NCBI RefSeq assembly: GCF_004403985.1 | Contig: NZ_SOHL01000030.1 | Coordinates: 296-64,295 of the forward strand | DNA: 64,000 bases | Reading direction: 5' to 3' | DNA from: Cryobacterium gelidum | GTDB lineage: Bacteria; Actinomycetota; Actinomycetes; Actinomycetales; Microbacteriaceae | In this document: positions 28,568 to 52,594 of the stretch, in pieces | Position numbering within the stretch: position 1 is the first letter of the stretch | Layout of the letters: each line of letters opens with the position of its first letter | Program-made: the position numbers and the translations under genes | Notes under the pieces: model-generated | The model's database searches: none | What the model saw: the letters and a program-made list of their open reading frames with translations, nothing else | What the model was told of the DNA's origin: nothing

Positions 28568-29425
28568 TCATGTCAGTCCGTACAGCGCGAGATAGCCCGC
28601 GGCAATCTGCTCGCCGCCGAAGATTCCGAGCCACGCCCCCGCGAGCATCCATGGGCCGAAGGGGATGCTGCTCTTGCGGTTTGCTCGCCGCGTGATGACT
28701 AGTACCAGACTAAACACCCCACCGAGCAGGAACGCGGAGAACGCGCCGACGACCAACGGCCCCCAGCCCAGAAAACCCAGGAAGAGGCCGAGCACTCCGG
28801 CCAGCTTCACATCGCCAAGACCCATTCCGCCGGGGTACAGGAGCGCCAGAGTGAGATAGAGGGCGAACAGGGCGGCGCCGCCGATTACCGCGGGGACTAA
28901 CCGGCCGGGCTCGCCGAGGAGCAGCGCGGCCGTCACCAACAGAGCCGCGCTCACCGGGTAGGCCGGCACGACGATCTTGTTGGGGAGCGTGTAGGTGTCG
29001 AGGTCGATCATGGCCAGTGCAACGCTCACCGCGGCCAGATAGAGGAACACCACCAGGGTGACGGCAATCCCAATGATCGCACCGGTCGAACTAATCGAGA
29101 CCACGCCCAACATGCCGGTCGAGCCAAAGCCGCTGCTGGTGACCACCCACCAGGCGACAGCCCCGAAGAACACCGCGGTTCCGAGCTCCACGAGCGGATA
29201 CCGGATCGAGATTCGCTCCCCGCAGTCGCGGCATTTGGCGCGCAACGCCAGCCAGGAGATCACCGGCACGTTGTCCCACGGGCGGATGCGTGCACCGCAG
29301 CTGGCGCACGCGCTGGGCGGCGACACGATGGATCGCCTGGCCGGCACCCGGTAGATCACGACGTTCAAAAACGACCCGATCAGCAAACCGATTGTGGCAG
29401 CGAGGATGACCGCAAAGCTAGCCAA
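28568..29425 (-). CDS. pilD: Prepilin peptidase (A24 family) with methylase domain
   Basis: A bifunctional membrane aspartic peptidase that cleaves type IV prepilin leaders and N-methylates the new end. The 285-residue product has a cytoplasmic loop with two CxxC pairs (Cys40/43 and 65/68), and the two catalytic aspartates in AMIDLDTYTLPN (Asp141) and GGMGLGDVKL (Asp205), within about eight membrane helices. The start is TTG at 29425, overlapping the end of the pilX-like gene by 8 bases. It is the only prepilin peptidase in the window, so it may process both the type IV and the Flp pilins. Confidence 0.95.
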   Translation of the reverse strand: MASFAVILAATIGLLIGSFLNVVIYRVPARRSIVSPPSACASCGARIRPWDNVPVISWLALRAKCRDCGERISIRYPLVELGTAVFFGAVAWWVVTSSGFGSTGMLGVVSISSTGAIIGIAVTLVVFLYLAAVSVALAMIDLDTYTLPNKIVVPAYPVSAALLVTAALLLGEPGRLVPAVIGGAALFALYLTLALLYPGGMGLGDVKLAGVLGLFLGFLGWGPLVVGAFSAFLLGGVFSLVLVITRRANRKSSIPFGPWMLAGAWLGIFGGEQIAAGYLALYGLT

Positions 29426-30839
29426 CCGGCACCATCTCCCGCCGACTCAAGAATTCACCGAGGGCCGCCCCCGAGATCCTGGGGACCGTTATTCCTTCGG
29501 TGAGGTCGACTCCGGCAATACCCACGGGAACGAATACGAGCTGCGCTTGCTGGCCGAACTCGACTTCTCCGGCGTAGATCTGCCCGCGAAACCCGTTCCG
29601 GTCGCTGTAGACCTTGCAGGGCGTATAGATCATGGCAGAAATATTACTGCCGAAATCCGCCTCGTTCGAGAGCGTGATACCGCCAGTGAGCAGGGGCGGA
29701 GGAACGCATGTCGGCGCGCGATTGGGCAGGTCATCGGGCACGATGAACGAGACTTGGCGGGCGGCCGCCGCCGAGAAATAGAGCCTGTCGAACTTGAATT
29801 CTTTGGCGACGAAGACAATATCAGCGCTCAGCGCCACGTTGTCCATGTTGTTGCTCGTGGTCACCGCAGTAAGCGGGCATTTGGAAAGAAAGTTAATGAC
29901 GGTCTTCGAGGTGTAGTTCTTGATGTTTGCCCACTCAGTTGACGCCTTCGAGATGGCACACGATCCCGTCCAGTCAACAACGTTGTAACCTCGAGCGGTC
30001 CAGGTCAGCGGGTTGAAACCAACGTCAACCCAACCCGGCACGATGGGAGCGGGAACGGTCGGTCCCGATTGAATGCTGCCGGTGACGACGGAGTCAGTAA
30101 CCGTCGCGATCCCGGATGCCTTGACGTCTCCGCCGATCTTGCTCTTGTTCACCACTGCATCCTTGGACACATGCACCGAGCCGGCAACGTCGCACATATC
30201 GAGTTTTGCACTACCGTCGCCGAGCACGAGATCGCCACCGATGCTCGCGTTATTGGTGCATTCCACGTCACCCGTTTTGATCATGACGGATGTGGCCACG
30301 CTATTGTCGCCCGACGACAGCACGAATTTCTTCAGGACCCCGTCGACTTTGTAGGCATAAACCGCGACACCCGCCATCGGCACCTGCACCACGATCTGGT
30401 CGTACGAATAAAGAACCTCGACGGTCGATTTGTCACCCGAGGTAGCCCCGGCGACGCCCGAATTAACCGCCGACCCGGTGGAGGTGATGCGCACCGACGT
30501 GGATGCGATGTCGGGGCAGCCATTCTTGTTATTGGGCTTGATCAGGATTTTGGATATCGGAACGCCGGCGACAGGAGCGAACACCAAAATACCGTTGTCT
30601 CCCGCCGTGCAACCCCCCGCGGTTCGCAATGCCGTGAGAGCAACGTCGATGCCAGCTTCGGCCGCGGCCAGTGATTGCACCGACGCGCGGGTTGAGCTCG
30701 TGACGCTGAGCGCGTTGATCGACGCGGCGGTGAGAGTCATGCCCACGATCGCGGTCACGGCCATGACGCCGAGAACGGCCATGAGGGCGCTGCCCCGCTC
30801 ATCGCGATAAATGACGCATAGTCGTTTTATGGGAAGCAT
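29418..30839 (-). CDS. PilX-like pilus protein with a bactofilin-like repeat region
   Basis: A 473-residue protein. The N-terminus, RDERGSALMAVLGVMAVT and then ASVQSLAAAEAGIDVAL, is the usual start of PilX-type pilus proteins with a processed or retained membrane helix. Residues about 195-275 are a run of short beta repeats (NASIGGDLVLGDGSAK, then CDVAGSVHVSKDAVV, then SKIGGDVKASGIAT) that look like the right-handed beta-helix of bactofilins. The C-terminal part is unassigned. It overlaps the pilW-like gene by 13 bases. Probably a surface or tip component of the pilus. Confidence 0.7.
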   Translation of the reverse strand: MLPIKRLCVIYRDERGSALMAVLGVMAVTAIVGMTLTAASINALSVTSSTRASVQSLAAAEAGIDVALTALRTAGGCTAGDNGILVFAPVAGVPISKILIKPNNKNGCPDIASTSVRITSTGSAVNSGVAGATSGDKSTVEVLYSYDQIVVQVPMAGVAVYAYKVDGVLKKFVLSSGDNSVATSVMIKTGDVECTNNASIGGDLVLGDGSAKLDMCDVAGSVHVSKDAVVNKSKIGGDVKASGIATVTDSVVTGSIQSGPTVPAPIVPGWVDVGFNPLTWTARGYNVVDWTGSCAISKASTEWANIKNYTSKTVINFLSKCPLTAVTTSNNMDNVALSADIVFVAKEFKFDRLYFSAAAARQVSFIVPDDLPNRAPTCVPPPLLTGGITLSNEADFGSNISAMIYTPCKVYSDRNGFRGQIYAGEVEFGQQAQLVFVPVGIAGVDLTEGITVPRISGAALGEFLSRREMVPVG

Positions 30840-31429
30840 GTGGGCAGCCCTCCTATCGATGTGGTCGGCTGCCTGCTGACCGACGACGTACTGATGAGCA
30901 CCGGCCGCCCTGCGCCGGTGCTCATGTCGAGCGCAAGGTCGACGCGCCGACCGGCCACGGTGAACACTGGAGCGGGGACCGCGGCAACAATAAGCGGTTG
31001 CGCGCCCTCAGCCAGGATCATCCACGATTTCACCGACGTCGAGGTCTGGATCATTGAGATCGCCCCGGTGGAGTACTTGGTGCGAACTTCCCCGTTGTCG
31101 TAGGACCATGCCTGGCAACGCCAGTTCGGAGTTTCCGCCGAACCGACCGTGCGCACCATAAGAATCTGTGGGACGACCCCGGGAGCGCTTTGCCAGATAC
31201 CGCTGGCATTACGCACACCGAGGCTAACGGATGACGCCACCAGCTGACCGGCGCTACTGGCCTGGCTGGCCTCTCGCACGGAGCGCTCAACTCTGAGCGA
31301 GTTGATGAGGATCCCGCCGACAATCAGGAGAACAACAACGGAGAGTACCGAGTAGATGAGGAGCTCGACGAGCGTGAAGCCAGCTTCGGTGGATCGGCGT
31401 TCTGCGAGCGTGCTGATAAGTTTCTTCAT
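30827..31429 (-). CDS. PilW-like minor prepilin
   Basis: A 200-residue type IV prepilin. The leader ends in STEAG, cleavage is expected before FTLVELLIYSVLSVV, and Glu at mature position 5 is present. The remaining domain has one cysteine pair (WRCQAWS and the C-terminal PTCFP). Its ATG overlaps the stop of the preceding pilV-like gene (ATGA). Minor pilins in a row between pilA and the peptidase usually prime pilus assembly. Confidence 0.85.
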   Translation of the reverse strand: MKKLISTLAERRSTEAGFTLVELLIYSVLSVVVLLIVGGILINSLRVERSVREASQASSAGQLVASSVSLGVRNASGIWQSAPGVVPQILMVRTVGSAETPNWRCQAWSYDNGEVRTKYSTGAISMIQTSTSVKSWMILAEGAQPLIVAAVPAPVFTVAGRRVDLALDMSTGAGRPVLISTSSVSRQPTTSIGGLPTCFP

Positions 31430-31857
31430 GGCGCCCGCAGGTAGACGAGGGTCGCCGCGGTCACCGGCGGCTGCGCGGAGCCGACCATGGACACTGTGAC
31501 CTTCACGCTAACCGTTTTCGGGTAGTCCGTGAGCAGCACAGAACAAGCCCCCACGGTTCGTGTCGGCCGATAGCGCACTCCGCGGGAATCGGTAACAGCG
31601 GGAGGCGTGACGCTGCCATAAACGCTCAATGCAACACAGGTATCGCCGGCCGATCGGGCCTGTTCGAGTTGTTGTCCGACGAGCTGTGTCGCGGTGGCGA
31701 TCGTCGAATTACGAACGGTCGTCTGCATGGAAGCGATGAGGAGCGGTAGGAAGGCCACGGCGAGTAAACCCAGAAGAAACATCGAAATAACGATTTCAAT
31801 TAGACCGAAGCCAGATTCTGATACTCTGACGCGGCGAACCGGCTTACGTATCCTCAT
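31426..31857 (-). CDS. PilV-like minor prepilin
   Basis: A 143-residue type IV prepilin with leader RVRVSESG, cleavage before FGLIEIVISMFLLGLL and Glu5 of the mature protein present. A cysteine pair occurs in the external part (DTCVALS and GACSVLL). AGGTG precedes the ATG. It follows pilA after about 100 bases. Confidence 0.85.
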   Translation of the reverse strand: MRIRKPVRRVRVSESGFGLIEIVISMFLLGLLAVAFLPLLIASMQTTVRNSTIATATQLVGQQLEQARSAGDTCVALSVYGSVTPPAVTDSRGVRYRPTRTVGACSVLLTDYPKTVSVKVTVSMVGSAQPPVTAATLVYLRAP

Positions 31858-31957
31858 GATTCACCTATTCAAGAGAGCAAATCTCAAAGCGATTTGATGG
31901 GGCGACATCAAAACTGGCACCCCACCCAGTCACGAACGAGCGTGGACTACGGTGCGA

Positions 31958-32371
31958 TTACGGAGTCGCAACGTTGCCAGTGCATTTGCCCTTGATGACG
32001 CCACTCTTGTCATCCGCAGCCCACGAATCCGTCGTTGCAGTGAGGTCGCTGTGCTTTCCAAGGATGCAGAAAGCTGCCACAGTTCCGCTGATAGTGAGAG
32101 TCACTTTCGAATCGCCAGATGCGACCGCAGTCGGGAACGCATCCCCTTTCACTATCCCAGAGACAACATTCACTTTCGCAGTCGCGATAGCCGACTCGAC
32201 AGCGCTTCCCTTTGCGGATGCTTGCTGGCCGAGGAAGATCGGAACAGCAATCGCAGCGAGGATGCCGATAATGATGACGACGACGAGGAGCTCGATCAGG
32301 GTGAAGCCCTTTTCTTTCTTGCCGAGTTCTGAACGCTTGCGGGCAAGCGCAGCCGTGATGGAGCTGGTCAT
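31958..32371 (-). CDS. pilA: Type IV prepilin, probable major pilin
   Basis: The likely main subunit of the type IV pilus: 137 residues, leader MTSSITAALARKRSELGKKE plus KG, cleavage between Gly22 and Phe23, then FTLIELLVVVIIIGILAAI, with Glu27 as the conserved Glu5. The globular part is small, with a cysteine pair (FCILGK and GKCTGN) forming the usual disulfide loop near the C-terminus. The ATG at 32371 follows GAGGA closely; the frame is open to 32434 without a better start. The gap ahead of it holds an inverted repeat and probably its own promoter. Confidence 0.92.
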   Translation of the reverse strand: MTSSITAALARKRSELGKKEKGFTLIELLVVVIIIGILAAIAVPIFLGQQASAKGSAVESAIATAKVNVVSGIVKGDAFPTAVASGDSKVTLTISGTVAAFCILGKHSDLTATTDSWAADDKSGVIKGKCTGNVATP

Positions 32372-32445
32372 GTGAAGTCCTCTTCGCTGTGTGGTGGCCG
32401 ATAAAGGGCTCCTTATCGCCCCCACGATGAGCATATGGTGACTGA

Positions 32446-32463
32446 TAGTGCTTTAAGCCACTA
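32446..32463. promoter_or_regulatory. Near-perfect inverted repeat ahead of pilA
   Basis: TAGTGCTTTAAGCCACTA is an 18-base near-palindrome about 75 bases ahead of the pilA ATG, in the AT-rich gap between pilC and pilA. It could be an operator or part of a promoter region for the major pilin. No partner regulator is visible nearby. Confidence 0.4.
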
Positions 32464-32508
32464 TTTCTAGGAAATTATTGCAGCGCCGTACCCCCACTTT
32501 TGGGGAGA

Positions 32509-33738
32509 CTACTTGATGTACTCGAAAATGCTAAACATCGGCATGTAAAGAGCCACGATCATGCCACCGACCACGACACCGATGAAGGCGATCATGAGCG
32601 GTTCGATCAGTGCGGTGAGCTGCTCGGCCGTGGCCTGCACCTCCTGATCGTAGAAGTCCGCGATCTTACCGAGCATCTGTTGCAGGGCACCGGCATCTTC
32701 CCCGACCGCGATCATCTGCGTCACCATTGCCGGAAAGACCGGCTCAAGGCTGAGCGGACCGGCAATCGACTTGCCCTCGCGCACCGACTCCTGCACCTTG
32801 CGCAGCGCCGACTCCACCACCCAGTTGCCTGAGGTCTCCCCCACGATCGCGAGCGACTGCAAAATGGGCACACCCGCGCCGATCATGGTGGAGAAGTTGC
32901 GGCTGAAGCGCGCAATAGCGAGCTTGGTCAAAAGCGGGCCAAACACGGGGAGCTTGAGCTTGAGCGGGTCAACGACCCTGCGCACCCGCTCGGTGTTCTT
33001 GTTCTTACGCCACCAGATCGTGAATGCGATTCCGCCTACGATGAGCACCGGCAGCAGCCACACCATGGCCTTCGACAGCACCACCAGCACCTGGGTGGGC
33101 AGCGGCAGCTCGCCGCCGAAACCGGCGAACATCTTCTCGAACACCGGCACGATGAAGGTGAGCATGCCGATCACGGCCAGCACGGCCATGATCAGCACGA
33201 TGGTGGGGTAGGCCATGGCCGACTTGATGGTGTCGCGCAGCTTTCCCTCCGCTTCGAAGTTAGCGGCCACCGAGTTGAGCGAGCTCTCCAGGAATCCGCC
33301 GGTCTCGCCGGCCCTGACCAGGTTGATCATGATCGGCGGAAAGACGATGGAATGTTTCTCCAGCGCCTCCGACAGCGAAATGCCGGTCTCCACATCGTTG
33401 CGGATCGTCGTGAGAATCTTCGCCAGGTCTTTGTTCTCGGTCTGCGCGGCGAGAATGTTCAGGGTGCGCAGCAACGACAAGCCGGCCGAGGTCATCGTCG
33501 CCATCTGCCGGCTCATAATTGCGAGGTCTTTGAGTCCGATCCCCTTGCCCAGGCCGGGGATCTTGATCTCCATGCTCAGCCCGGTGCCCACCGCCACCTC
33601 AGTCACCGAGATCGGCGACAGCCCCATGGTGCGCACGCGCGTCGTGGCCACGCTCTGCGACGGGGCATCTACTCGCCCCTTCACAACCTTGCCCGCGGCG
33701 TTGCGTCCCTTATAGGCGTAGGCCAGGCTGATCGTCAT
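32509..33738 (-). CDS. pilC: Type IV pilus platform protein PilC
   Basis: A 409-residue inner membrane platform protein of the T2SSF family. Its two homologous halves each hold a cytoplasmic helical domain (MSRQMATMTSAGLSLLRTL and FSRNFSTMIGAGVPILQSL) followed by membrane helices, with VGEDAGALQQMLGKIADFY near the end. All of this is typical of GspF/PilC. It overlaps the pilT stop by ATGA. Confidence 0.96.
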   Translation of the reverse strand: MTISLAYAYKGRNAAGKVVKGRVDAPSQSVATTRVRTMGLSPISVTEVAVGTGLSMEIKIPGLGKGIGLKDLAIMSRQMATMTSAGLSLLRTLNILAAQTENKDLAKILTTIRNDVETGISLSEALEKHSIVFPPIMINLVRAGETGGFLESSLNSVAANFEAEGKLRDTIKSAMAYPTIVLIMAVLAVIGMLTFIVPVFEKMFAGFGGELPLPTQVLVVLSKAMVWLLPVLIVGGIAFTIWWRKNKNTERVRRVVDPLKLKLPVFGPLLTKLAIARFSRNFSTMIGAGVPILQSLAIVGETSGNWVVESALRKVQESVREGKSIAGPLSLEPVFPAMVTQMIAVGEDAGALQQMLGKIADFYDQEVQATAEQLTALIEPLMIAFIGVVVGGMIVALYMPMFSIFEYIK

Positions 33739-35072
33739 TGGGTATCCCGCGGGGAGAAGGAGTCACCGAAGTCGATCCCGCCGGTGAGCATCGGATTAGC
33801 CGCAGGGTCGGACACATCGATCCGGCGAATGAGCTGCGCCAGCCCCTCGAGATCCTGCGCCTTCTCCTCCGCCGACTGTCGGGTGATTAGACCGTCATTG
33901 ACGAGCTCGGCCAGGTGCTGGTCCAGGGTCTGCATCCCGAGCGCACGACCGGCCTGCATCGACGACGCGACCTGATACGTCTTACCTTCGCGAATCAGGT
34001 TCGACACGGCGGGGGTCGTCACCAGAATCTCGGTGGCCACGACCCGACCACCACCCACCTTCTTGACCAGGGCCTGACAGACGACGCCCCGCAGGGTCGC
34101 GGCCAGCTGCGTGCGCACCTGCCCCTGCTGATGCGGCGGGTAGACATCGATAATGCGGTCGATGGTCTGAGCCGCCGACTGCGTGTGCAGGGTCGCAAAC
34201 ACGAGGTGGCCGGTCTCGGCCGCGGTCAGCGCCACCGAGATCGTCTCCAGGTCGCGCAGCTCACCGATCAGGATGACGTCGGGGTCTTGACGCAGAACGT
34301 GCTTGAGCGCGGATGCGAAACTGTGCGTATCGTGCCCCACCTCACGCTGGTTGACGATCGACTTCTGATGCTGGTGCAGAAACTCGATCGGGTCTTCCAC
34401 CGTGACGATGTGCTCCGCGCGCGTGCGATTCACCACGTCGATGAGGGCGGCCAGGGTCGTCGACTTGCCCGATCCGGTTGGTCCGGTCACCAGCACGAGG
34501 CCGCGCGACAGTTTCGCGAACTGGGACACCGAATCGGGAACCCCCAGTTCTTTCAATTGCTTGATTCCGCGCGGGATCAGTCGGAAAGCCGCGCCGATGG
34601 AATTGCGCTGATGGTAATAATTCACCCGAAAACGCGCGCCACCCGCCGTGTAGGCGAAATCCAGCTCGAGTTCTTCCTCGAACTGTGCGCGCTGTTTCGG
34701 CGAGAGGATGCTGTAGAGCGCCGAGGTAACCTTATCGCCCATCCAGCGGGTGGAGCCCTCGATGGGTTGAAGGCTCCCATCGACCCGGATGCTCGGGGGC
34801 GCGCCGACCGTGATGTGCAGGTCGGAGGCGTTGAGGTCGAGAACCCCGGATAGCGCGTTCAGCAGGTCGAGGTCGGAGACCTCGTCACCGCCAGATCGTC
34901 GATGTTCCCGGCGACCGCCCGCGCCGTCGGCCGGAGCCGGGTGAGCCTCCGGCTGCGCCACGAGGTCTGGCGCTTCATTGCCACCATGGGGGCGATCGTC
35001 CTCCGCCGGATTCCACCCCGCCGCAGAATCCCCCGCTGGCGAAAATGGTATGTCATAAATTGGCTGGCTCAC
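33735..35072 (-). CDS. pilT: Twitching motility retraction ATPase PilT
   Basis: The ATPase that retracts type IV pili. With the GTG at 35072 the product has 445 residues. The first about 80 residues are an added low-complexity Asp/Pro/Gly-rich segment; then come the PilT N-domain (DLHITVGAPPSIRVDG), Walker A GPTGSGKST near residue 197, the Asp box VTVEDPIEFLH, Walker B DPDVILIGELRD, the His box ATLHTQSA and the PilT-specific AVSNLIREGKTYQ. GGGGAG precedes the GTG. A PilT beside PilB predicts a dynamic, retractable pilus. Confidence 0.95.
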   Translation of the reverse strand: MSQPIYDIPFSPAGDSAAGWNPAEDDRPHGGNEAPDLVAQPEAHPAPADGAGGRREHRRSGGDEVSDLDLLNALSGVLDLNASDLHITVGAPPSIRVDGSLQPIEGSTRWMGDKVTSALYSILSPKQRAQFEEELELDFAYTAGGARFRVNYYHQRNSIGAAFRLIPRGIKQLKELGVPDSVSQFAKLSRGLVLVTGPTGSGKSTTLAALIDVVNRTRAEHIVTVEDPIEFLHQHQKSIVNQREVGHDTHSFASALKHVLRQDPDVILIGELRDLETISVALTAAETGHLVFATLHTQSAAQTIDRIIDVYPPHQQGQVRTQLAATLRGVVCQALVKKVGGGRVVATEILVTTPAVSNLIREGKTYQVASSMQAGRALGMQTLDQHLAELVNDGLITRQSAEEKAQDLEGLAQLIRRIDVSDPAANPMLTGGIDFGDSFSPRDTQ

Positions 35073-35091
35073 GCAAAACTCCCCTTGTGCA

Positions 35092-36765
35092 CTATGCGAC
35101 AACTCGCAAAATTTCCTCGATCGAGGTCAAACCCATCTGGACCTTCATCCAGCCGTCCTCGCGCAGGGTGATCATTCCCTGCTCGCGCGCCGTGCGGCCG
35201 ATTTCAGAACTGGAGGCACGGGCGACAGCCATCCGCTCGATTTCTTCGGTGACCGTCATTACCTCGTGCACCGCGATGCGGCCGCGGTAACCGGTCTTGG
35301 AACAGTGCGCACAGCCTACCGGCAGAAAAGTCTGCGGCAGCGGCTGCCCGGGGTCGAACGTGAAGCGCAACCGGGCGAGCTGTTCGGAGTCGTGTTCGGC
35401 CGGAGCCTTGCAGCGGTCGCAGAGGCGGCGGGCCAGACGTTGGGCAACCACACAGTCCAGCGCCGACCCGACCAGAAACGGCTCGATGTCCATCTCCGTC
35501 AGTCGGGTGATCGCGCTCGGCGCGTCGTTGGTGTGCAGGGTCGAGAGCACGAGGTGACCGGTAAGCGAGGCCTCGATGGCGATCTGCGCGGTCTCGTGGT
35601 CGCGGATTTCACCCAGCAGAACGACATCCGGGTCGCTGCGCAGGATGGAACGCAGGGCGCTCGCGAAGGTGAGCCCCGCCTTCGGATTCACCTGCACCTG
35701 GTTGATGCCGGCCATGCGGTACTCGACCGGGTCTTCGACCGTGATCACGTTGATCTCGGGGCGGGCGACCGCGCCGAGGGTGGTGTACAGGGTGGTCGAC
35801 TTGCCCGAGCCGGTCGGACCCGTGATCAAAATCATGCCGTAGGGCTTGGAATAGGAGGTCTGGTAGGCCTCGAAGTTGTGCTCGAGCAGTGCCAGTGCGC
35901 GCACGTCCAGGGTCGTGTTCGAGTTGTCGAGAATACGCATGACGACTTTTTCGCCCCACACGGTGGGCAGGGTTGCAACGCGCAGGTCGATCTGGCGGCC
36001 CGCGTGACGCACCGTCATGCGGCCGTCCTGCGGTTTGCGCCGCTCGGCGATGTCGATGTCGCTCATGATCTTGAGCCGGGAGATCACGCCGTTCTGGATA
36101 TTCTTGGGTGCGGTCTGCATCTCGTGCAGCACACCGTCGATGCGGTAGCGCACCCGCAGGCTGTGTTCGCCGGGTTCGATGTGAATGTCGGAAGCCAGGT
36201 CCTGAATGGCCTGACTCACGAGCAGGTTCACGAATCGCACGATCGGGGCCGAGTCATCGGTTGACTCGGGGCCGCCCATGGTGACGGCCTCGGGCGCGTT
36301 CTCTTCCTCGAGGGTGGTCGTGAGGTTGCTGAGCTCGTCATCGGCGCGATGATGGCGGGTGATCGCCGCGAGCAGGTCTCCGCGTTCGGCGACGACCGGG
36401 GCCACGCGCATGCGTGCCGCTTCGCCCACGTCATCGAGGGCGAAGACGTTGCCGGGGTCGACCATCGCCAGCACCAGGCGGCCGTCTTCGATGGCGATCG
36501 GCAGGATTTCGTGTCGACGGCAGACTGCGGCGGTCACCTTGGAAATGGCCAGCCGGTCGACAGGATAGTCGATGAGCTCCACGAAGGGCAGCCCGGCTTG
36601 CTCGGCCCGAGCCCTGGCGAATTGCAGCTCGGTGATCACCGCACTGTCTACGAGGGCGCGCACGGCCTTCTCATCGGCGGGGTCACCGACCGCGAGTGAG
36701 TCGAGATGCTCGATCGGGAGCAGGCCGTGCAAAATGAGAATCTCGGTCAGGCTTGGCACAACCAT
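35092..36765 (-). CDS. pilB: Type IV pilus extension ATPase PilB
   Basis: The assembly motor ATPase (GspE family), about 557 residues. An N-terminal MshEN-type domain (LPIEHLDSLAVGDPADEKAV) is followed by the N-domain (DIHIEPGEHSLRVRYRIDG), Walker A GPTGSGKSTT near 317, Asp box ITVEDPVEYRM, Walker B DPDVVLLGEIRD, His box STLHTNDA, and a zinc site with two CxxC pairs (CDRC and CAHC). The ATG at 36765 is listed, but GTG at 36759 fits better to the GGGGG that precedes it; the difference is two codons. It is the first gene of the pilus operon. Confidence 0.95.
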   Translation of the reverse strand: MVVPSLTEILILHGLLPIEHLDSLAVGDPADEKAVRALVDSAVITELQFARARAEQAGLPFVELIDYPVDRLAISKVTAAVCRRHEILPIAIEDGRLVLAMVDPGNVFALDDVGEAARMRVAPVVAERGDLLAAITRHHRADDELSNLTTTLEEENAPEAVTMGGPESTDDSAPIVRFVNLLVSQAIQDLASDIHIEPGEHSLRVRYRIDGVLHEMQTAPKNIQNGVISRLKIMSDIDIAERRKPQDGRMTVRHAGRQIDLRVATLPTVWGEKVVMRILDNSNTTLDVRALALLEHNFEAYQTSYSKPYGMILITGPTGSGKSTTLYTTLGAVARPEINVITVEDPVEYRMAGINQVQVNPKAGLTFASALRSILRSDPDVVLLGEIRDHETAQIAIEASLTGHLVLSTLHTNDAPSAITRLTEMDIEPFLVGSALDCVVAQRLARRLCDRCKAPAEHDSEQLARLRFTFDPGQPLPQTFLPVGCAHCSKTGYRGRIAVHEVMTVTEEIERMAVARASSSEIGRTAREQGMITLREDGWMKVQMGLTSIEEILRVVA

Positions 36766-36891
36766 CCCCCGGGTCAATCTGCTGCGGAAACCTGCCAAAA
36801 CACACACGGCGTGGCCGCTACACCTGTGAGCACTGGGGGCTTATCGATAGATCCTTAGGCTACCTCAACCAGCCAGCCCACACCCCCTTCC

Positions 36892-36951: not shown

Positions 36952-37728
36952 TCACCAGGTCGTGATGGCGAACGCGATGAAGGTTGCCGCCCCGAGCAAC
37001 ACCAGGAGGGTGCTCGTGACGATCGCGGTCAGGGTGAGGCGTCGACGGCGCCGAGATTTGGCCAGGGTACGCTGCCGGATGAGGGCGGCCGCCGCGGCGA
37101 GCGCGATGCGAGCCAGATCGGGCGTGTTGGCTGGTGCTGATGCTGATGCTGATGCTGATACTGATACTGATACTGATACTGATACTGATACTGATACTGA
37201 TACTGATACTGATACTGATGCTGAGGCTGATGCTGAGGCTGAGGCTGATGCTGATGCCGGTGCTTCGGCGATGACCGGGGCCGGCCGCGCCGCATAGCGC
37301 ACACTCGACCCGCTCCGCACCTGTGGCGGCTCGTAGCGGCGTTGCAGTGCGTCGACGACGGGAGTGGGTGCGGCTGACGCCGCCCTCCGACCGCTGAGGA
37401 GCGTGTCGTTGCTCGTGCTGTCCCGGGAAGAACGCACTGTGGAGTCATCGGTTGGATCTGCGTCGTCGCTGGGAGCTTCTGATGCCTCACCTGGGCCGCT
37501 CGCCGCGGACTTTCTTTCCACGACGAGGGTGTGTTCGTCGGTGGTGCGCTGCACGATTCGCGTCTGGTCGTCGTCGGGTTCAGCGGGTTGGTTGGACTCG
37601 CTACTTGGCGCCGGCACCGAAGCGCCATGGCGCGGCGCGCCTCGGCGAACAATGCGGGTTGCCTCGTCGAGGTCGTCGGCCGTCTCGGGCGCTGGCACCG
37701 AGGCCGGGCGTCGCGGGTCACCGGACGG
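36952..37728 (-). CDS. Tail-anchored acidic protein with three D-x-T-x-[IV]-V-x-R motifs and a Ser-Val/Ser-Ala repeat
   Basis: A protein of about 258 residues, mostly low complexity and probably disordered, with one membrane helix at the very C-terminus (LTAIVTSTLLVLLGAATFIA), preceded by a basic RRRRR stretch, so it should be tail-anchored with the N-terminus in the cytoplasm. Three similar motifs occur: DEATRIVRR (Thr25), DDQTRIVQR (Thr57) and DEHTLVVER (Thr68). A run of 20 hexamers encodes alternating Ser-Ala and Ser-Val before the helix. The start at 37728 overlaps the PP2C stop by 11 bases. The frame extends to 37848 with other ATGs, none with a good ribosome binding site, so the start is uncertain. 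It is the last gene of the locus. No family was recognised; a phospho-substrate of the local kinase is inferred. Confidence 0.65.
   Translation of the reverse strand, partial: PSGDPRRPASVPAPETADDLDEATRIVRRGAPRHGASVPAPSSESNQPAEPDDDQTRIVQRTTDEHTLVVERKSAASGPGEASEAPSDDADPTDDSTVRSSRDSTSNDTLLSGRRAASAAPTPVVDALQRRYEPPQVRSGSSVRYAARPAPVIAEAPASASASASASASASVSVSVSVSVSVSVSVSVSVSASASASAPANTPDLARIALAAAAALIRQRTLAKSRRRRRLTLTAIVTSTLLVLLGAATFIAFAITTW
37136..37255. repeat. Tandem hexanucleotide repeat, 20 units, within a gene
   Basis: Four GCTGAT units, ten ACTGAT units (37160-37219) and six GCTGAT/GCTGAG units follow each other without a break. On the minus strand they encode Ser-Ala and Ser-Val dipeptides. The ten identical units are an ideal substrate for slipped-strand changes, each of which would add or remove two residues without a frameshift. 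Confidence 0.97.
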
Positions 37729-38584
37729 CATGGCGGGCCACGCGTTGCACCGGTCGGGTGTCGTCGGTGCGGGTGTCTCCGATATGCGCATGATCGTCGC
37801 CATCGATCGGGACGCCGTGCCACGAGCTGACCCCGCCAGCGATGACATCGATGACGATCACCGACACGTTGTCTCGCCCGCCGTGTTCGAGCGCTCCGGC
37901 GAGCAGCATGTCAGCCGTCTGCTGAACGGTGCCGCCGAGGGTCAGTTTGGCCTTGATGCTCTCGTCGGAGAGTTCGCCGCTGAGTCCGTCGGAGCACACC
38001 AGCAGGCGTTCGCCCGTCACGACCGGGCGCAGCCAGTAGTCCGGGCTGCTGTTGTCGGCGCCCATGGCGCGGGTGATGACGTTCTTGCGCGCGAAGGTGG
38101 CGACATCCGCTTTGAGCAGGGACCCGGCGTCGATGAGTTCCTGGGCCAGGGAATGATCGACCGTGAGCTGCTGCAAGTTTCCGCCGTGCAAACGGTAGAC
38201 CCGCGAGTCGCCCACGTTTACGATGAGCCAGTGCGGGGCATCCTCGTGGTCGATGAGCACGAGACCGGTCAGCGTGCTGCCGGCGCCGCGCCCGGTCGAA
38301 TCCGACACGACGCGCACCGCGCGGTGGGCGCGCTCCACCGCGGCCACCACGTCGCCAGCCAGAACGCCGGTGCCGGCGACGCAGGTCTGAAATTCGGCGA
38401 TCACGGCGGCGCTGGCGCGGTGGCCGGCTTCGAGCCCGCCCATTCCGTCGGCGACGAGGAACACCGGAGACGCCGCCAGCAGGGAGTCTTCGTTCTCGTT
38501 CCGCTTGCGGCCGACGTCGGTGCGCGCGCCGTACCGCAGCGACACTTCAGCGCTGGTTACTCGCTGGTCGGCAAGGTGGGTCAT
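37718..38584 (-). CDS. PP2C-family Ser/Thr protein phosphatase
   Basis: A metal-dependent phosphatase of 288 residues (PstP/Stp type, without a membrane helix). The PP2C motifs are all there: RYGARTDVGRKRNENED, VADGMGGLEAG, GSTLTGLVLI, NVGDSRVYRLHGG, LLVCSDGLSGEL and GGRDNVSVIVIDV, with the aspartates that bind Mn/Mg. It sits directly behind the FHA gene and belongs to the same unit as a Ser/Thr kinase, so it should reverse that kinase's phosphorylation. Residues after about 260 are a variable tail. Confidence 0.95.
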   Translation of the reverse strand: MTHLADQRVTSAEVSLRYGARTDVGRKRNENEDSLLAASPVFLVADGMGGLEAGHRASAAVIAEFQTCVAGTGVLAGDVVAAVERAHRAVRVVSDSTGRGAGSTLTGLVLIDHEDAPHWLIVNVGDSRVYRLHGGNLQQLTVDHSLAQELIDAGSLLKADVATFARKNVITRAMGADNSSPDYWLRPVVTGERLLVCSDGLSGELSDESIKAKLTLGGTVQQTADMLLAGALEHGGRDNVSVIVIDVIAGGVSSWHGVPIDGDDHAHIGDTRTDDTRPVQRVARHAVR

Positions 38585-38587
38585 GGC

Positions 38588-39808
38588 TCAGGCCTCCAGG
38601 TAGATGCGCGCCGCGAGTTCCCCGAGCAGGAACCGGTCGGTCAGGGGCGCGGTCGCACCCGCATCGAGCTCGTTCTCGATGCCGCCGCCGTCGATGAGCA
38701 CGATGCCGTTGGTCGAGTGCAGGTCGTGAATTTCCCAGGCTCCCTCGACGAAGTCGAGGCGGGCGTGGGTCTTCGAGACTGTCCTTCCGGGGTCGTGCAG
38801 CAGTACTAACTGCGCGTCGGCGTGTGCGCCGTCACGCACGGGGTTGCGCCCGAGGAGCACGACCGGTTTGGTGAGCGAGACCTTCAGGCCGTGTTCGGTT
38901 TCGAGGGTCCACGGCTTCATACGACGCACCACGATCATGGTCTGGTCGAGGTCATCGTCGTCGGCTTCGGCGCCCGAGTCGAGGGCGACGGAAGGGGCGG
39001 ATGCGGCCTCATTGACGGATGCTGCGGCGTGCGCCGGAAAAGACGGAGCGGTCGCGCCTCCGGCAGCGGTAGGTGCCGCGGGCGGTGCCGCGACCGCGGA
39101 GGCATCCGTTGCCGCGGGCGGTGCGGACGACTCGGAGACGGCTGGTGGAACAGGCCGGGCGCTCACATAGAACGGCGGCGGCCCGGTGGGCAGACCACGC
39201 ACGGCCGGCGGTGCGGGAGAAGCAGGAGGTACCAAAGGTGCGGTCTCCAGCACTGCGGGGGGCCGGGCCGGGGGCAGGGGCGGCTCGGCCAGCGGAGGCA
39301 CTGCCAGCGGAGGCACTGCCAGCGGTGGCGGCGTCGGCGTCATGACGCTTTGGCCCGCCGGCGCGGATGCTGCCAACATCATTGACAGCGGCGTCACCGG
39401 GACAAACGGAACGTAACCGGTCGCGGCGGTCGCGGGCATCCAGCCGGTGTCTACGGACCTGCCGAATCCGAGCACGCCGGCCCAGAGGGGAAAGGACACC
39501 AGGCAGAGCAGGGTGAACCCGCCGCCGTGGCCCAGCCGTCGATTGACGTTGTTGACCGCCATGATGAAGACGACGAGGGCCACCAGATTTGCGGCCGGTA
39601 TGAACAGGCCAAGCACCCACAGGGCCGAATACCGACCGAGCTCGAACAGGGTGATGCTGTTGACGATCGGAATCCAGCCCTTCCAGGCCTGCTCCCCGAG
39701 CTTCACAAAGACCTTGCCGAGGGCGATCGACGAGACGACGTAGACGCCGACACTGAACAGCAGGACCACCATGATGATCGCGATCATCGCTCCAGATGAT
39801 TCATCCAT
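38588..39808 (-). CDS. Membrane protein with C-terminal FHA domain
   Basis: A 406-residue protein in three parts: about four membrane helices at 8-125 (DUF5684-like layout, with GWIPIVNSITLFELG), a long Ala/Pro-rich linker (about 140-285), and a C-terminal FHA domain (about 310-385) with VLLGRNPVRDG, TVSKTHARL and DLHSTNGIVLIDG. These carry the Arg, Ser/Thr, His and Asn residues that read phosphothreonine. Just before the FHA domain is DDLDQTMIVVRR (Thr290), the same motif seen in the tail-anchored protein; it resembles the self-regulating phospho-site of GarA/Rv1827-type FHA proteins. It ends one base before the transglutaminase-like gene's end region and 3 bases ahead of PP2C. Confidence 0.9.
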   Translation of the reverse strand: MDESSGAMIAIIMVVLLFSVGVYVVSSIALGKVFVKLGEQAWKGWIPIVNSITLFELGRYSALWVLGLFIPAANLVALVVFIMAVNNVNRRLGHGGGFTLLCLVSFPLWAGVLGFGRSVDTGWMPATAATGYVPFVPVTPLSMMLAASAPAGQSVMTPTPPPLAVPPLAVPPLAEPPLPPARPPAVLETAPLVPPASPAPPAVRGLPTGPPPFYVSARPVPPAVSESSAPPAATDASAVAAPPAAPTAAGGATAPSFPAHAAASVNEAASAPSVALDSGAEADDDDLDQTMIVVRRMKPWTLETEHGLKVSLTKPVVLLGRNPVRDGAHADAQLVLLHDPGRTVSKTHARLDFVEGAWEIHDLHSTNGIVLIDGGGIENELDAGATAPLTDRFLLGELAARIYLEA

Positions 39809-42436
39809 TTATGATTCGCGGCCGCTGGTGGGCGACCGCTCCCCCATTCTGTTCGTGTCGCGCCGGTTCAGGCGCTCGGTGGTGACGTCGCGTCGAGATG
39901 CGCTGGGTCGAAAAGTGTAGAGTCGGCGGGCATCCGCTAGCCGAGAAAAGGAGCGCAGCGAGATGGCCGCGCGCAGCCGTTGGCGCCGGGTTCCGCTCGC
40001 CGCGAGCCCAGCGCGTTCGGCCGTGACGAGGGCCCAGAAGGCATCGCTCTCGGCGGCACGCGGCGGGGTCGCCCCAAAGACGGCCCGGTCGGCCAGGGTC
40101 GCCAGGTGCGCGCCACCGACCGATTGGTAGTGCGCGGCGATCTCGACCCGGGTCATGCTGCCCTGGTCGGCGAGGCCGCGGTCGACGGCGGCGTCGATGT
40201 ATTCGTCCCAGCCGCCGGCGAACCGGGCCGAGACGGTGGCAGCACGGGCCCGGTCACGGCGACGCTTGAGTTTGGCACCGAGAATGACCAGGAACGGGGT
40301 GCTGATTGCGAGCAGCGTGGCCAGGCTGATGCCGGCAATCTTGAGGGCCGCGAACAGCCAGGCGAGGTCGGGGGCGGTGACCGGGTCCTGTTCCTGCTGG
40401 TCTTCGCCGCTGGTCGGATCAGCTTCGGGAGCACGCTGCTCGGTGGCGCCCTCCGCGATGACCTCGGTGTTGAATTGCGGGTCGCGGGTCGCGTCGTCCA
40501 TGGGCGACAGTGGGTTCTGAAACTGCGGGGTCACGTCTACCGTGGCCCAGTTGCCGTCGGCGCTGGCCACTTCCACCCAGGCGGCGAGGTTCTGCCCCGA
40601 GCAGACGCCCTGCGGGCAGGCGCCGGGGGCGCCCGAAACTGCAGCGCCCGCCGCATCGAGGGTGAAGCCCACCACCACCCGGGATTCAAACCCGAGGTGG
40701 CGAGCGAGCAGGGCGGTGGCGACGGCGAATTGTTCGTCGTCGCCGATGGCGGCCACGAGCTGGGAATTCTCGGTGGCGGTCGTGCTGTTCTGCTTCTCGA
40801 GCAGGGCGGTGAACAGTGCGTCGATGCGGGCGACCGAGTGTCCAGACCGGCTGGGCGAGAACTGGTAGTCGCCGAGGTCGGCGGTCCAGGAGTCCACGGC
40901 CGGCACGGTCAGGGCGTGGCTGAGGTAGCCGCGCTCGCGCAGGCGGGTGACGAGTTCGGCCAGTCCGGCGCCATCGCGCGTGACGGCCTGGGCGTCGACC
41001 CAGTCGCTCAGGCTCTGCGGAATGAGCGTCTCGTCGATGGCGTCACCGGCCGGGCGGGTGACGCCGGCCAGGGCCGTCGCATCCGCTGGCTGCTGCGAGA
41101 TGATCGTGTAGCGGTCACCGCGGGCGAGGGCGTTGAGTTGAATTGCGGATGCCGTACCCGCGTTGTAGAAGAATCCGTCGCTCAGGTCACCGGCCCGGTC
41201 ACCGGCAAAGCGGATGCTGGCCAGCGCGCCGGCCCCCGGCATCCAGACGCCGGTGTACCCGGCAATGTTGAACCCGGTGGACACGCTGTTCGGTGTCGCC
41301 CCGCGCGCGTGGGGCACCCGGGCGAAGGCGGTGGCCTGGTCTCGTTCGCCCGCGGCGGGGTTCATAACCCGAAAGACCTCGCCGTCGTAGTAGCTGAGCA
41401 CGGCCAGGCGCACACGCGACCCCGTGCCGTTCTCGACAGCCGCGCCGGTCACCGTGAATAGTTCCTTGTCGTACTGTTCGGCGCTGAAGTAGCCCCGGTA
41501 CTGGCTGAGCGGGCTGACGTATTCGCGCAGTTCGACGGCCGGATCGATGCTGCTGCGCAGCACCTCACGGGCCGGCGTCGCGGCAGCCATCGAGAGCCCG
41601 CCGAGCGTGACGCCGACGGCGAGCACGAGAACGCCCCCGGCGAGGGCGGCCCGGCGCAGGCGACCGCCGAGACCGCCGGGCGTGCGCCGCACCCCGCTCG
41701 TGCGGGCGGCAAGGTCGAGCGCCTCGCTGCGGGCCAGGTGGGTGCGCCAGGCGAGAAAGCCGAAGGCGAGCAGCAACGCGGCGAGGCCGATCAGGCTTTC
41801 GCGCGGTGCCGGCACGCTGACACCGAACACGGTCAGCGGAATGCTCACGGCACTCGAACCGAAGAGCAGCCCGAACAGTTGCACCGCAAAGATCAGGGGA
41901 ACGGCGAGGGCGAAGAGTCGCCCGCCGCGCCAGACCAGCGACAGGGCGAGCGTGCTGCCGCCGAGAAACAGCAGAAAGGCCGGCACGAGCAGGGTCTGGT
42001 AGGAGCCGACCGGCAGCTGGATGGTGACGAGTTCTTTCCAGCTGAACACCGTGGCCGTCACCAGATCGAGCAGACCGCCGAGAGCGTTCGGCACGCCCGT
42101 CGATCCGCTGAACAGTGCGGCAGGCACCGCGAGCGGAACGCCCAGCAGCAGGTACGTGCCGAGCACGCTCAGCAGCATGGTGAACCAGGACCAGCCGCGG
42201 CGGGCACCGAGCCAGGCCAGCACCAGACCGGCCGCAATCGCGCCGGCCGCCATGATCAGGTAGCTGGAGTCCTGATAGATCGGCCAGGCCGCGCCGACGG
42301 CGACGAGCATCATCGCCACGACGAACAGGGCGTTGATCGCTCGGGCACGGCGGCCGCCGGGTGCCCGGCGCGCACGAACCGTCGGCACGACGCCGGTTAC
42401 GGGTCGGCCAGCGACGGGCGTTTCGAAGGCGCTCAT
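39809..42436 (-). CDS. Membrane transglutaminase-fold protein, probable pseudoenzyme
   Basis: An 875-residue membrane protein: about eight N-terminal helices (30-270), a large external region with a transglutaminase-like domain (about 520-640), one further helix (about 705-725) and a cytoplasmic tail with a DUF4129-like stretch. The architecture is TgpA/PFNA-Tgm type. The domain ends correctly in NWATVDVTPQ with the catalytic Asp, but the Cys site reads GDDEQFAVATALL (no Cys) and the His site reads LAAWVEV where HAWxEV is normal. It should therefore be inactive. The ATG at 42436 overlaps the DUF58 stop (ATGA). The open frame upstream to 43624 is only a shadow of the DUF58 gene. Confidence 0.9.
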   Translation of the reverse strand: MSAFETPVAGRPVTGVVPTVRARRAPGGRRARAINALFVVAMMLVAVGAAWPIYQDSSYLIMAAGAIAAGLVLAWLGARRGWSWFTMLLSVLGTYLLLGVPLAVPAALFSGSTGVPNALGGLLDLVTATVFSWKELVTIQLPVGSYQTLLVPAFLLFLGGSTLALSLVWRGGRLFALAVPLIFAVQLFGLLFGSSAVSIPLTVFGVSVPAPRESLIGLAALLLAFGFLAWRTHLARSEALDLAARTSGVRRTPGGLGGRLRRAALAGGVLVLAVGVTLGGLSMAAATPAREVLRSSIDPAVELREYVSPLSQYRGYFSAEQYDKELFTVTGAAVENGTGSRVRLAVLSYYDGEVFRVMNPAAGERDQATAFARVPHARGATPNSVSTGFNIAGYTGVWMPGAGALASIRFAGDRAGDLSDGFFYNAGTASAIQLNALARGDRYTIISQQPADATALAGVTRPAGDAIDETLIPQSLSDWVDAQAVTRDGAGLAELVTRLRERGYLSHALTVPAVDSWTADLGDYQFSPSRSGHSVARIDALFTALLEKQNSTTATENSQLVAAIGDDEQFAVATALLARHLGFESRVVVGFTLDAAGAAVSGAPGACPQGVCSGQNLAAWVEVASADGNWATVDVTPQFQNPLSPMDDATRDPQFNTEVIAEGATEQRAPEADPTSGEDQQEQDPVTAPDLAWLFAALKIAGISLATLLAISTPFLVILGAKLKRRRDRARAATVSARFAGGWDEYIDAAVDRGLADQGSMTRVEIAAHYQSVGGAHLATLADRAVFGATPPRAAESDAFWALVTAERAGLAASGTRRQRLRAAISLRSFSRLADARRLYTFRPSASRRDVTTERLNRRDTNRMGERSPTSGRES

Positions 42437-43839
42437 GCGGCTCTGCGGCTGAGCAGGGAACGAAAGTCGTCGAGCACGCCGATGGTCAGCACGCTCGTGC
42501 CGGCCAGGTCGCGAAAGCTCGGCTGCTCGTTGGGGTTGCACAGCACGGCGACGACCTGCACGTTCCCGGCGAATTTCAGGGTGAGCGCCTGCAGACGCCG
42601 CGCGGTCATCGTGGAGCCGCACACCACGAACGCGATGGAAATATCGGGCACCACGCTCGATGCGAGCTCGCAGACGTCTTCGACGTTCATGGCGTGCGGG
42701 CTCACCGCGATCGCGGTGAGGTCGTCGAGCAGGGTACGCGTCGACACGACACTCAGGCTGCGCACCGAACGGATGCTGCGGCGCACGATGCCGGGGATCT
42801 CCGCGCTTGCCACGACGGCCAGGTCTCGACCGTCCCGGATGGCACGCACACCGAGCGAGCCGGTCGCGCTGACCGCCATTTCGAACTCGTCCTCCGAGGC
42901 ATATTCCGCGGCGTTCAGGCTCAGCACGATGGCCAGGCGCGAGCGCCGGCTTTCTTCGAACTGCCGCACCATGAGCTGGCCGGTCTTCGCGGTGGACTTC
43001 CAGTGGATGTGGCGCTGCCCGTCGCCGGGCGCGTACTCGCGAATGGCGTGAAAGGAGATGTCGGAATCGACGATGTCGCTCGTGGGGTTGCCCTCGAGGT
43101 CGCGCACGAAACCGGCGCTCGTACTCGGAATCGACACGGTCACCGGGTGCACGAACAGGCGGTTGACGTCGGCCCAGGGCCGTGAGCGGCCGAGCACACC
43201 GAGCGGGTCGCTGCGCACGGTCGTGACCGGGCCGACATCGATGACGCCGCGGCGGTAGGCGGGCACGCGCACCCGCTCCTCGTGCACCTGGCCGGAGCGC
43301 AACAGCGGCACGTAGACATCCGCCAGACCCTTGCCGATGGGAACGTCGACGCGACCCGGCAGCTCGAGGCGCTTGGACACGTTGGTGACGGTGAGGGTGC
43401 CGAGCACCTCGGTACCGGCTACGACCCGGTCGGCCGGCAGCACGAAGTCCACGCGGTAGGCGCGGCCCCCGGCCAAAAACGGCAGCGAGAGCAGAACGAG
43501 GGCGACCGCCACACACCCGGTCACGATCAGCTCGGTCCAGCCGAAGACGAGGCCGAGCGGCAGCAAGACGATCGCGGCCGCGACCACCACCCAGCCGGCC
43601 GGAGTGACCGTTTCGCCGATCCATTCAACGGATGCCTGCACACCGTTTCGCACAGCGCGCGCGACCTTCATCCAGAGCACCACCGCGCCAACCAGGGTCG
43701 ACGTCGTCGATTTGCTCGTGCGCCCCGAGTAGTTGGTGTGCGTCGCGGAGTACCGGGTGTGCGTGGCAGACCTGGTCTGGGTGTCGCGGCGCGCCGGCCT
43801 CGATGTGGGCGACTGGCGCGATTCGGTGTGAAAGCTCAC
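42433..43839 (-). CDS. DUF58 domain protein
   Basis: A 468-residue membrane protein. The N-terminal 60 residues are rich in Ser, Thr and Arg, with the imperfect repeat SATHTRYSATHTNYSG; then come two close membrane helices (about 68-110), a beta-rich segment, and the DUF58 core with VDSDISFHAIREYAPGDGQRHIHWK followed by TGQLMVRQFEESRRSRLAIVL, a vWA-like fold. DUF58 proteins work together with MoxR ATPases, and here the MoxR gene precedes it with an ATGA overlap and the transglutaminase-like gene follows with another. Confidence 0.93.
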   Translation of the reverse strand: MSFHTESRQSPTSRPARRDTQTRSATHTRYSATHTNYSGRTSKSTTSTLVGAVVLWMKVARAVRNGVQASVEWIGETVTPAGWVVVAAAIVLLPLGLVFGWTELIVTGCVAVALVLLSLPFLAGGRAYRVDFVLPADRVVAGTEVLGTLTVTNVSKRLELPGRVDVPIGKGLADVYVPLLRSGQVHEERVRVPAYRRGVIDVGPVTTVRSDPLGVLGRSRPWADVNRLFVHPVTVSIPSTSAGFVRDLEGNPTSDIVDSDISFHAIREYAPGDGQRHIHWKSTAKTGQLMVRQFEESRRSRLAIVLSLNAAEYASEDEFEMAVSATGSLGVRAIRDGRDLAVVASAEIPGIVRRSIRSVRSLSVVSTRTLLDDLTAIAVSPHAMNVEDVCELASSVVPDISIAFVVCGSTMTARRLQALTLKFAGNVQVVAVLCNPNEQPSFRDLAGTSVLTIGVLDDFRSLLSRRAA

Positions 43840-44801
43840 GCCAGGTCGCTCCGACTGGGCGGGACGACGTCGAGCAGAATCTGACCGATGACGGCGCTCG
43901 CGGTGACACCGTCGAACTCGGCTTCGGGTTCGAGCGCCATCCGGTGCGCCAGCACCCGATCGGCGAGGGCCTTCACGTCGTCGGGAGTGACGAAGGCGCG
44001 GCCGTGCGCCACGGCCCAGGTCTTGGCGGCCTTGGTGAGGGCGCGCGCGCCACGCACGCTGACCCCCATGCGCACTTGGCGGGCCAGACGGGTGGCCTCC
44101 ACCAGGCGGCCGATGTAGTCGTAGACGAGCGGATTCACGAACACACCGCGGGCGATGTCGCTCATGCTCACGAGCGCCTGCGGAGTGATGACGGGGGCGA
44201 GTTCGTGGCGCACGTCGGCGGTGCCCTCGAGGATGCGAATGGTCGCGGCGAGGTCGGGGTAGCCGAGCGAGGCCTTCATCATGAACCGGTCGAGCTGGGC
44301 CTCGGGCAGCCGGTAGGTACCGGCCTGCTCGATCGGGTTCTGGGTGGCGATGACGAGAAATGGCACCCCGGTGGAACGGGTGACGCCGTCGATGGTGACG
44401 TTGCCCTCTTCCATCGCTTCGAGCAGCGCCGACTGGGTTTTGGGGCTGGCCCGGTTGATCTCGTCGGCGAGCACGACGTTGGCGAAGATCGGTCCGCTGT
44501 GAAACTCGAACTCGCCGGTCTTCTGGTCGTAAACGGTGATGCCGGTCACGTCGCCGGGCAGCAGGTCGGGGGTGAACTGGATGCGGGTCGAGACGCCCTG
44601 CACGGTCTGCGACATGGCGCGGGCGAGCGAGGTCTTGCCGGTGCCCGGGTAGTCCTCGAGCAGCAGATGGCCTTCGCTGACCATTGCGGTGAAGGCGAGT
44701 TCGATCACGTGGCGCTTGCCGAGAACGACCTGCTCCACGTTGTCGACCATCATCGTGAAGGTCGCGGCGAACCAGTCTGACTGCTCCGGGGTGATTGTCA
44801 T
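43836..44801 (-). CDS. MoxR-family AAA+ ATPase
   Basis: A 321-residue AAA+ ATPase with Walker A LEDYPGTGKTSLARA (about 49-63), Walker B VVLADEINRASPKTQSALLEA, sensor region FLVIATQNPIEQAGTYRLPEAQ and the AAA lid. MoxR ATPases act as chaperone-like remodelers of vWA/DUF58 partners. It follows the giant surface protein gene after 19 bases, with GAAAGAG ahead of the ATG, and overlaps the DUF58 gene by ATGA. Confidence 0.95.
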   Translation of the reverse strand: MTITPEQSDWFAATFTMMVDNVEQVVLGKRHVIELAFTAMVSEGHLLLEDYPGTGKTSLARAMSQTVQGVSTRIQFTPDLLPGDVTGITVYDQKTGEFEFHSGPIFANVVLADEINRASPKTQSALLEAMEEGNVTIDGVTRSTGVPFLVIATQNPIEQAGTYRLPEAQLDRFMMKASLGYPDLAATIRILEGTADVRHELAPVITPQALVSMSDIARGVFVNPLVYDYIGRLVEATRLARQVRMGVSVRGARALTKAAKTWAVAHGRAFVTPDDVKALADRVLAHRMALEPEAEFDGVTASAVIGQILLDVVPPSRSDLA

Positions 44802-52502: not shown

Positions 52503-52594
52503 GGTGTCCCCCAAATGCATGAGCCCGAGCGGGCCGCGTGTCGTCCCAATCTAGTGCCAATACCCCTATGGGGTGAATGGGGGATCTCGGTTAG

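Follow-up and report, generated by a model that had tools for sequence, protein, structure and literature searches.

A candidate phosphothreonine motif shared by a tail-anchored protein and an FHA-domain membrane protein of Cryobacterium gelidum

What could the FHA domains encoded beside a kinase and a phosphatase gene bind? The question is raised by a locus in the 64,000-nucleotide window of Cryobacterium gelidum analysed here (contig NZ_SOHL01000030.1, positions 296 to 64,295), which encodes a Ser/Thr protein kinase, a PP2C phosphatase and two proteins with an FHA domain. The original prediction, made from the sequence of this window, had pointed to four copies of one Thr motif, three of them in a tail-anchored (TA) protein and one just before the FHA domain of a membrane protein with an N-terminal DUF5684 domain. 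All four are present as claimed, on the minus strand (Table 1). We consider it likely that a small system for reversible assembly operates at the membrane, and that in it these Thr motifs act both as phospho-acceptors and as docking sites for FHA domains.

Conservation of the motif and of its threonine

The frequency of the motif was counted genome-wide at the DNA level with a degenerate pattern for [DE]xTx[IVM]VxR. This pattern matched the 3,468,075-base genome 26 times, and a reversed control pattern matched 22 times. Four of the 26 matches lie inside 1.43 kb at the present locus (Poisson P ~5e-10, for a pattern defined after the sites were seen). A stronger test than this count comes from relatives. 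The orthologous locus, recognised by a PP2C with at least 60% identity, was found in 19 of 57 Cryobacterium genomes, and further related loci were taken from other Microbacteriaceae and from other families of Actinomycetales, with one genome per species. Every Cryobacterium TA protein has at least one site of the strict form, and one pre-FHA site is present in every Cryobacterium FHA protein whose region was covered. Outside Cryobacterium, the TA proteins contain 2 to 15 sites under a looser pattern, [DE]x(0,1)-T-x-[IVFLM]-x-x-R; examples are locus L082 with ten DDETVVTGR-type sites and L089 with fifteen EEATVFVARR-type sites. These copy numbers strengthen the earlier idea that the TA protein is a multi-site scaffold.

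The looser pattern was applied to the cytoplasmic parts of 40 TA proteins, whose Thr and Ser contents are nearly equal (7.5% and 7.4%). It gave 190 distinct sites with Thr and 1 with Ser, compared with 3.6 and 3.4 in shuffled sequences, and any non-Thr residue at the Thr position gave 21 in total. The Thr count is inflated by choice, because the TA proteins were recognised partly by their Thr motifs. The Ser count is free of this effect and, at 1, lies below its chance value. The sites use a mixture of Thr codons (ACC 89, ACG 85, ACA 9 and ACT 7) and are therefore more than recent copies of a single DNA repeat. With positions +2 and +5 left unconstrained, acid-preceded Thr residues had an acid at -2 in 88%, a hydrophobic residue at +2 in 75% and Arg or Lys at +5 in 70%; acid-preceded Ser residues showed none of these preferences.

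The pre-FHA site was examined in the same way. Among 19 Cryobacterium sequences, which use two Thr codons there, this Thr never varies, nor do Ile at +2 and Arg at +5; residues beyond -6 are mostly less than 50% conserved. An acid-led Thr with a hydrophobic +2 residue lies at most 45 residues before the FHA domain in 44 of the 54 PFNA-type FHA proteins left after dereplication, versus 13.0 in shuffled regions. Requiring Arg at +5 left 28 sites with Thr and 0 with Ser, where 0.85 were expected. The distance from this Thr to the start of the FHA profile varies between relatives and is mostly 10-14 residues. At several distant or repeat-poor loci (L121, L124, L125, L127, L082 and L090), the FHA protein has a pair of acid-led Thr sites ahead of its FHA domain. 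A search of the pre-FHA/FHA profile against solved structures gave no sequence match.

Together, the alignments show that the motif is real and Thr-specific across Actinomycetales, and that it has been kept over a very long time. Its refined consensus, as read from these sequences, is acid(-2)-x-T-[V/R]-[IVL]-[V or S/T/A]-x-R(+5). The comparison of orthologs modified the motif as first described; the original idea survived its own refuting condition, a loss of the Thr in most orthologs. Thr was kept almost without exception and was not replaced by Ser; the acidic lead was conserved and the surrounding linker was not, although the acid at -2 may be D or E and is not always D. The hydrophobic residue proposed at +3 did not hold up as a general feature, because the refined consensus allows S, T or A there: V or I occupies +3 in about half of the sites and S, T, A or G in most others, V, S, A and T being the commonest. 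The constant features are instead the acid at -2, the hydrophobic residue at +2 and the Arg at +5.

For the TA protein of the window itself, the three sites first described were joined by two weaker ones that had been missed, DDSTVRSSR and SNDTLLSGRR. In some relatives the hydrophobic residues of site 3 are swapped (DEHTRRVLR). The true start of the protein is probably M40 at 37731, near which the alignment of relatives begins, and the reading frame from M40 shares 14 bases with the end of the PP2C gene. In an AlphaFold2 model of a 258-residue TA construct, residues 203-257 form a C-terminal helix with a predicted local distance difference test (pLDDT) of up to 94, and the remainder, including the motif region, is coil. 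A long tract of (SV)n/(SA)n type, produced by a 6-base in-frame repeat, occupies residues ~202-230 (window 37160-37240, minus strand) and is absent from four aligned Cryobacterium relatives. As the repeat unit is 6 bases and in frame, a change in tract length would lengthen or shorten the membrane linker and leave the reading frame intact.

A possible assembly system and its alternatives

In the mechanism that we propose, two membrane proteins would be substrates of the locus kinase, which would phosphorylate the Thr of their acid(-2)-x-T-[V/R]-[IVL]-[V/S/T/A]-x-R(+5) sites. The TA protein would offer several such positions along its disordered cytoplasmic tail, and the DUF5684-FHA protein one, beside its FHA domain. 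That domain would bind phosphothreonine (pThr) both on the tail of TA and on further DUF5684-FHA molecules. A multivalent membrane patch would result, and PP2C would dissolve it by stripping the phosphates. The FHA-bearing secretion ATPase EccC, where present as here, may join the same patch. Phosphorylation, the responsible kinase, the binding partners and an effect on secretion are what we infer from the sequence record. The strongest link from the sequence statistics to the mechanism is that FHA domains tell pThr from phosphoserine via the Thr methyl group (PMC4037201), so that a Thr-only motif is to be expected of an FHA ligand. By sequence, the catalytic and FHA hallmarks are intact in the kinase, in PP2C and in the FHA domains of both the DUF5684 protein and EccC, and in nearly all loci no FHA protein other than the DUF5684-FHA protein is encoded next to the TA gene.

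The motif also goes with the neighbouring genes. It precedes the FHA domain in 33 of 35 loci with PP2C versus 11 of 19 without (Fisher P=0.002), and its strict form is associated with a TA protein at the locus (P=0.0004); both tests take the loci as independent, and a gene was scored as absent when the fetched stretch did not contain it. At locus L136 (frame 6752-9200, plus strand), PP2C, four DATVV-type sites and a C-terminal tail helix are fused in one open frame. We also compared the motif form of each TA protein with that of the FHA protein from its genome; matched pairs were more similar (6.70 vs 3.41, P=1e-4). In 14 of 21 cases, a genome's own TA protein came closer than did the three nearest relatives on average. 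We discarded this co-variation as evidence of co-evolution, because the similarity largely vanishes when PP2C distance is controlled (partial Mantel r 0.13, P=0.051) and mostly reflects shared ancestry.

That loss of similarity is one of several observations that weigh against the proposed assembly. Some PFNA-type FHA proteins have no pre-FHA motif, and the association tests above are uncorrected for shared ancestry. The repeats could spread by duplication. An AlphaFold2 model of the motif with the FHA region reached a mean pLDDT of only 36, too low for the model to be used. The frequent S, T or A at +3 is a further point, but whether FHA ligands follow a +3 "rule" is itself in dispute (PMC4037201).

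Several other explanations have to be weighed against this assembly. The position of the motif directly before the FHA domain recalls GarA and OdhI, actinobacterial proteins that have a phospho-Thr motif N-terminal to their FHA domain (for GarA, PMC12321487). The pre-FHA pThr might accordingly fold onto its own FHA domain and block it, with the TA protein as an independent competitor for the pocket. We regard such an intramolecular switch as unlikely. GarA, a metabolic regulator with an ETTS motif, is small and soluble, whereas the protein of the window is a membrane protein whose motif lies much closer to the FHA domain, and its score against the OdhI family model is 15.9 bits, for a cut-off of 200. 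The termini of FHA domains point away from the pThr-binding loops, and a contact in cis would need a longer tether. Since the Thr sits so near the FHA domain, binding in trans appears at least as likely as a cis switch, which is possible but not favoured. Kanadaptin offers a trans precedent, in which an N-terminal segment of a neighbouring molecule fills the FHA site (PMC4157861). Phosphorylation might be dispensable altogether if the motif were a short linear motif or a beta-strand add-on in which Thr is kept for its shape. Cores of T-V-V-V type do favour beta-strands, and the motif of the FHA protein leads straight into the conserved start of the domain. In that case, however, Val, Ile, Ser and Ala should sometimes replace Thr, yet all replacements together are far outnumbered by Thr (21 vs 190). 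The variable distance from motif to FHA domain, the constant acidic lead and the association with PP2C also argue against it and, in the last two cases, for phosphorylation, and we hold this explanation to be very unlikely.

The remaining alternatives concern the reader of the sites. EccC might be the main one, with the motif proteins serving type VII secretion system (T7SS) assembly, as its FHA domain keeps the pThr-binding residues and belongs to the same cluster here; FHA domains of the related T7SSd systems are predicted pThr binders whose ligand is not known (PMC11217815). The original prediction had included EccC as a reader of these sites. As a general role this failed: the N-terminal region of EccC was unmatched at E<=1e-12 in seven of the 34 motif-set genomes (G049, G037, G119, G081, G088, G214 and G198), most of which carry TA proteins and/or pre-FHA motifs. 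G149 also gave no such match at this threshold, in a genome that is only 82% complete. The reverse is seen in G108, where an EccC with 73% identity lies next to an FHA protein without the motif, with neither PP2C nor TA seen nearby. Since several genomes combine the full kinase/PP2C/FHA/TA set with the lack of a matching EccC, EccC is at best an additional client by these comparisons, and a main role for it seems quite unlikely. No Thr motif was found in EccC itself or in the kinase, and a phylum-wide search of distant EccC or T7SS-like loci showed no motif-rich TA protein. In the kinase, we rejected the juxtamembrane RGTVISDV as a motif site, because its Thr is not kept in relatives. We give only a slim chance to the idea that the sites, once phosphorylated, are recognised by FhaA/FhaB- or GarA-type FHA proteins elsewhere in the cell, or are a mere decoy kinase substrate. 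The genome does have six FHA matches, and at a pknB-type locus with FHA proteins (L108, 10834-12064, plus strand) PP2C ends with DATAIVKR, a motif match near the C-terminus. However, the motif is tied to the present locus and its own FHA protein in many genomes, and its 26 genome-wide matches are at chance level.

The locus and related systems

On the minus strand, the genes follow in the order rpoB, rpoC, EccC/EssC-like ATPase, WXG100, kinase, Ig-domain giant, MoxR, DUF58, transglutaminase-like, DUF5684-FHA, PP2C and TA (Table 1). By its gene content this is a PFNA-type cluster adjoining a T7SSd-like secretion ATPase. The ATPase scored higher against the NCBIfam model of EssC (514 bits) than against that of EccCa (348 bits), with all scores under the cut-off. 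The kinase chain stops directly after its C-terminal membrane helix and has no extracellular domain. Directly beyond the TA gene, at window 29418-36807, lie type IV pilus genes, identified by sequence as prepilins and PilC-, PilT- and PilB-like genes. The same genome contains a second locus (L109; contig 28, ~6951-10902) with PP2C, a zinc-ribbon FHA protein and an EccC relative, so the PP2C/FHA/EccC arrangement recurs; there NDTTIIARL precedes the FHA domain.

Table 1. Genes, motif sites and domains of the locus, in window positions
Feature	Position	Strand	Remarks
EccC/EssC-like FtsK/SpoIIIE ATPase, N-terminal FHA domain	52595-57091	-	GR, SxxH and NG kept
WXG100 protein	52206-52520	-	Pfam WXG100 E=6.1e-12
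Ser/Thr protein kinase	50910-52052	-	Pfam Pkinase E=4.8e-38; HRDIKPSN and DFG motifs
Ig-domain giant, 2029 aa	44821-50910	-	matches Big_9/cadherin-like models, not FN3
MoxR	43836-44801	-	PFNA-type core gene
DUF58	42433-43839	-	PFNA-type core gene
Transglutaminase-like protein	ends 39809	-	PFNA-type core gene
Membrane protein, DUF5684 (N-terminal) and FHA (C-terminal)	38588-39808	-	Pfam PF18936 E=4.5e-12, PF00498 E=2.8e-7
Pre-FHA motif DLDQTMIVVRR (Thr290)	38921-38953	-	directly before conserved WTLETEHG and FHA domain
FHA hallmarks GR (in LGRN), SxxH (in TVSKTH), NG (in HSTNG)	38705-38854	-	predicted pThr-binding residues present
PP2C phosphatase	37718-38584	-	Pfam PP2C_2 E=7e-9; NCBIfam Stp1 family under cut-off
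TA protein, open reading frame	36952-37848	-	no Pfam or NCBIfam matches
TA site 1 DEATRIVRR (Thr64)	37642-37668	-	site type repeated in 40 relatives
TA site 2 DDQTRIVQR (Thr96)	37546-37572	-	Thr, Val and Arg invariant in Cryobacterium alignment
TA site 3 DEHTLVVER (Thr107)	37513-37539	-	Thr and closing Arg invariant
Weaker TA site DDSTVRSSR	37423-37449	-	T-V-R-S-S-R invariant in 5 Cryobacterium sequences
Weaker TA site SNDTLLSGRR	37384-37413	-	conserved in Cryobacterium relatives
Second conserved TA-family stretch RYEPPQVRSGSSVRYAARP (PPxVxSGxxxRYAxRP)	37282-37338	-	between Thr sites and membrane helix; also conserved in other genera
Arg cluster and C-terminal transmembrane helix of TA	36955-37053	-	AlphaFold2 helix

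Three known systems resemble parts of this locus. The bifidobacterial PFNA cluster, given in PMC8430577 as pkb2, fn3, aaa-atp, duf58, tgm, prpC, hypothetical and fha, shares with it the five core genes from kinase to transglutaminase in identical order, plus PP2C and FHA genes. Its prpC-hypothetical-fha order differs from the order here, which is fha, PP2C, TA, and the PFNA passages of that paper do not describe the Thr motif. We considered the hypothetical seventh gene as a homolog of TA and rejected it, because the gene after PP2C in the bifidobacterium-like clusters examined (L152-L165) encodes an unrelated soluble protein. That protein contains repeated stretches of DPNADPxLLAKIAYENPEFG type.

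The T7SSd of Actinomycetota (TsdA, TsdC, TsdD, TsdH and TsdI; PMC11217815) likewise combines a WXG100 protein, an FHA-ATPase with a conserved pThr site, a kinase and a giant Ig protein. Its TsdH has a single helix and a short unstructured cytoplasmic part, a layout that the TA protein resembles. Unlike the window kinase, the T7SSd kinase has an extracellular helical C-terminal region.

A parallel to the proposed mechanism is the Thr phosphorylation pathway of type VI secretion, in which phosphorylated Fha multimerises and PppA reverses this (PMC6082577). In Serratia, one Fha Thr is the sole target of PpkA (PMC6082577), and in Agrobacterium the pThr of a membrane protein, TssL, is bound by Fha (PMC3953482). 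Like the present locus, this pathway (PpkA, PppA, Fha) has a membrane kinase, a PP2C and an FHA protein in one locus, and its Fha is a kinase substrate. By contrast, it belongs to an unrelated secretion system and phylum, whereas here the FHA protein is a DUF5684-type membrane protein and a separate TA protein offers 2-15 sites.

Implications for FHA-linked secretion loci

Beyond the assembly system itself, we tentatively suggest a previously undescribed kind of scaffold, though this wider proposal may well prove wrong. In it, a disordered TA protein with an evolvable number of pThr sites (2-15) would gather FHA membrane proteins, and in some genomes a T7SS ATPase, in a multivalent patch, and the repeat number would set its size or threshold. 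Kinase, PP2C and FHA genes often lie near secretion and PFNA-type loci of actinobacteria, for which phospho-control has been proposed by others who had no ligand to assign to the FHA domains. The conserved motif in two named proteins makes the FHA-ligand question testable with short peptides, and the 2 to 15 near-identical sites provide a natural series for multivalency in bacterial phospho-signalling. If the scaffold proposal is true, it would supply the missing phospho-ligand for the FHA domains of T7SSd-type systems.

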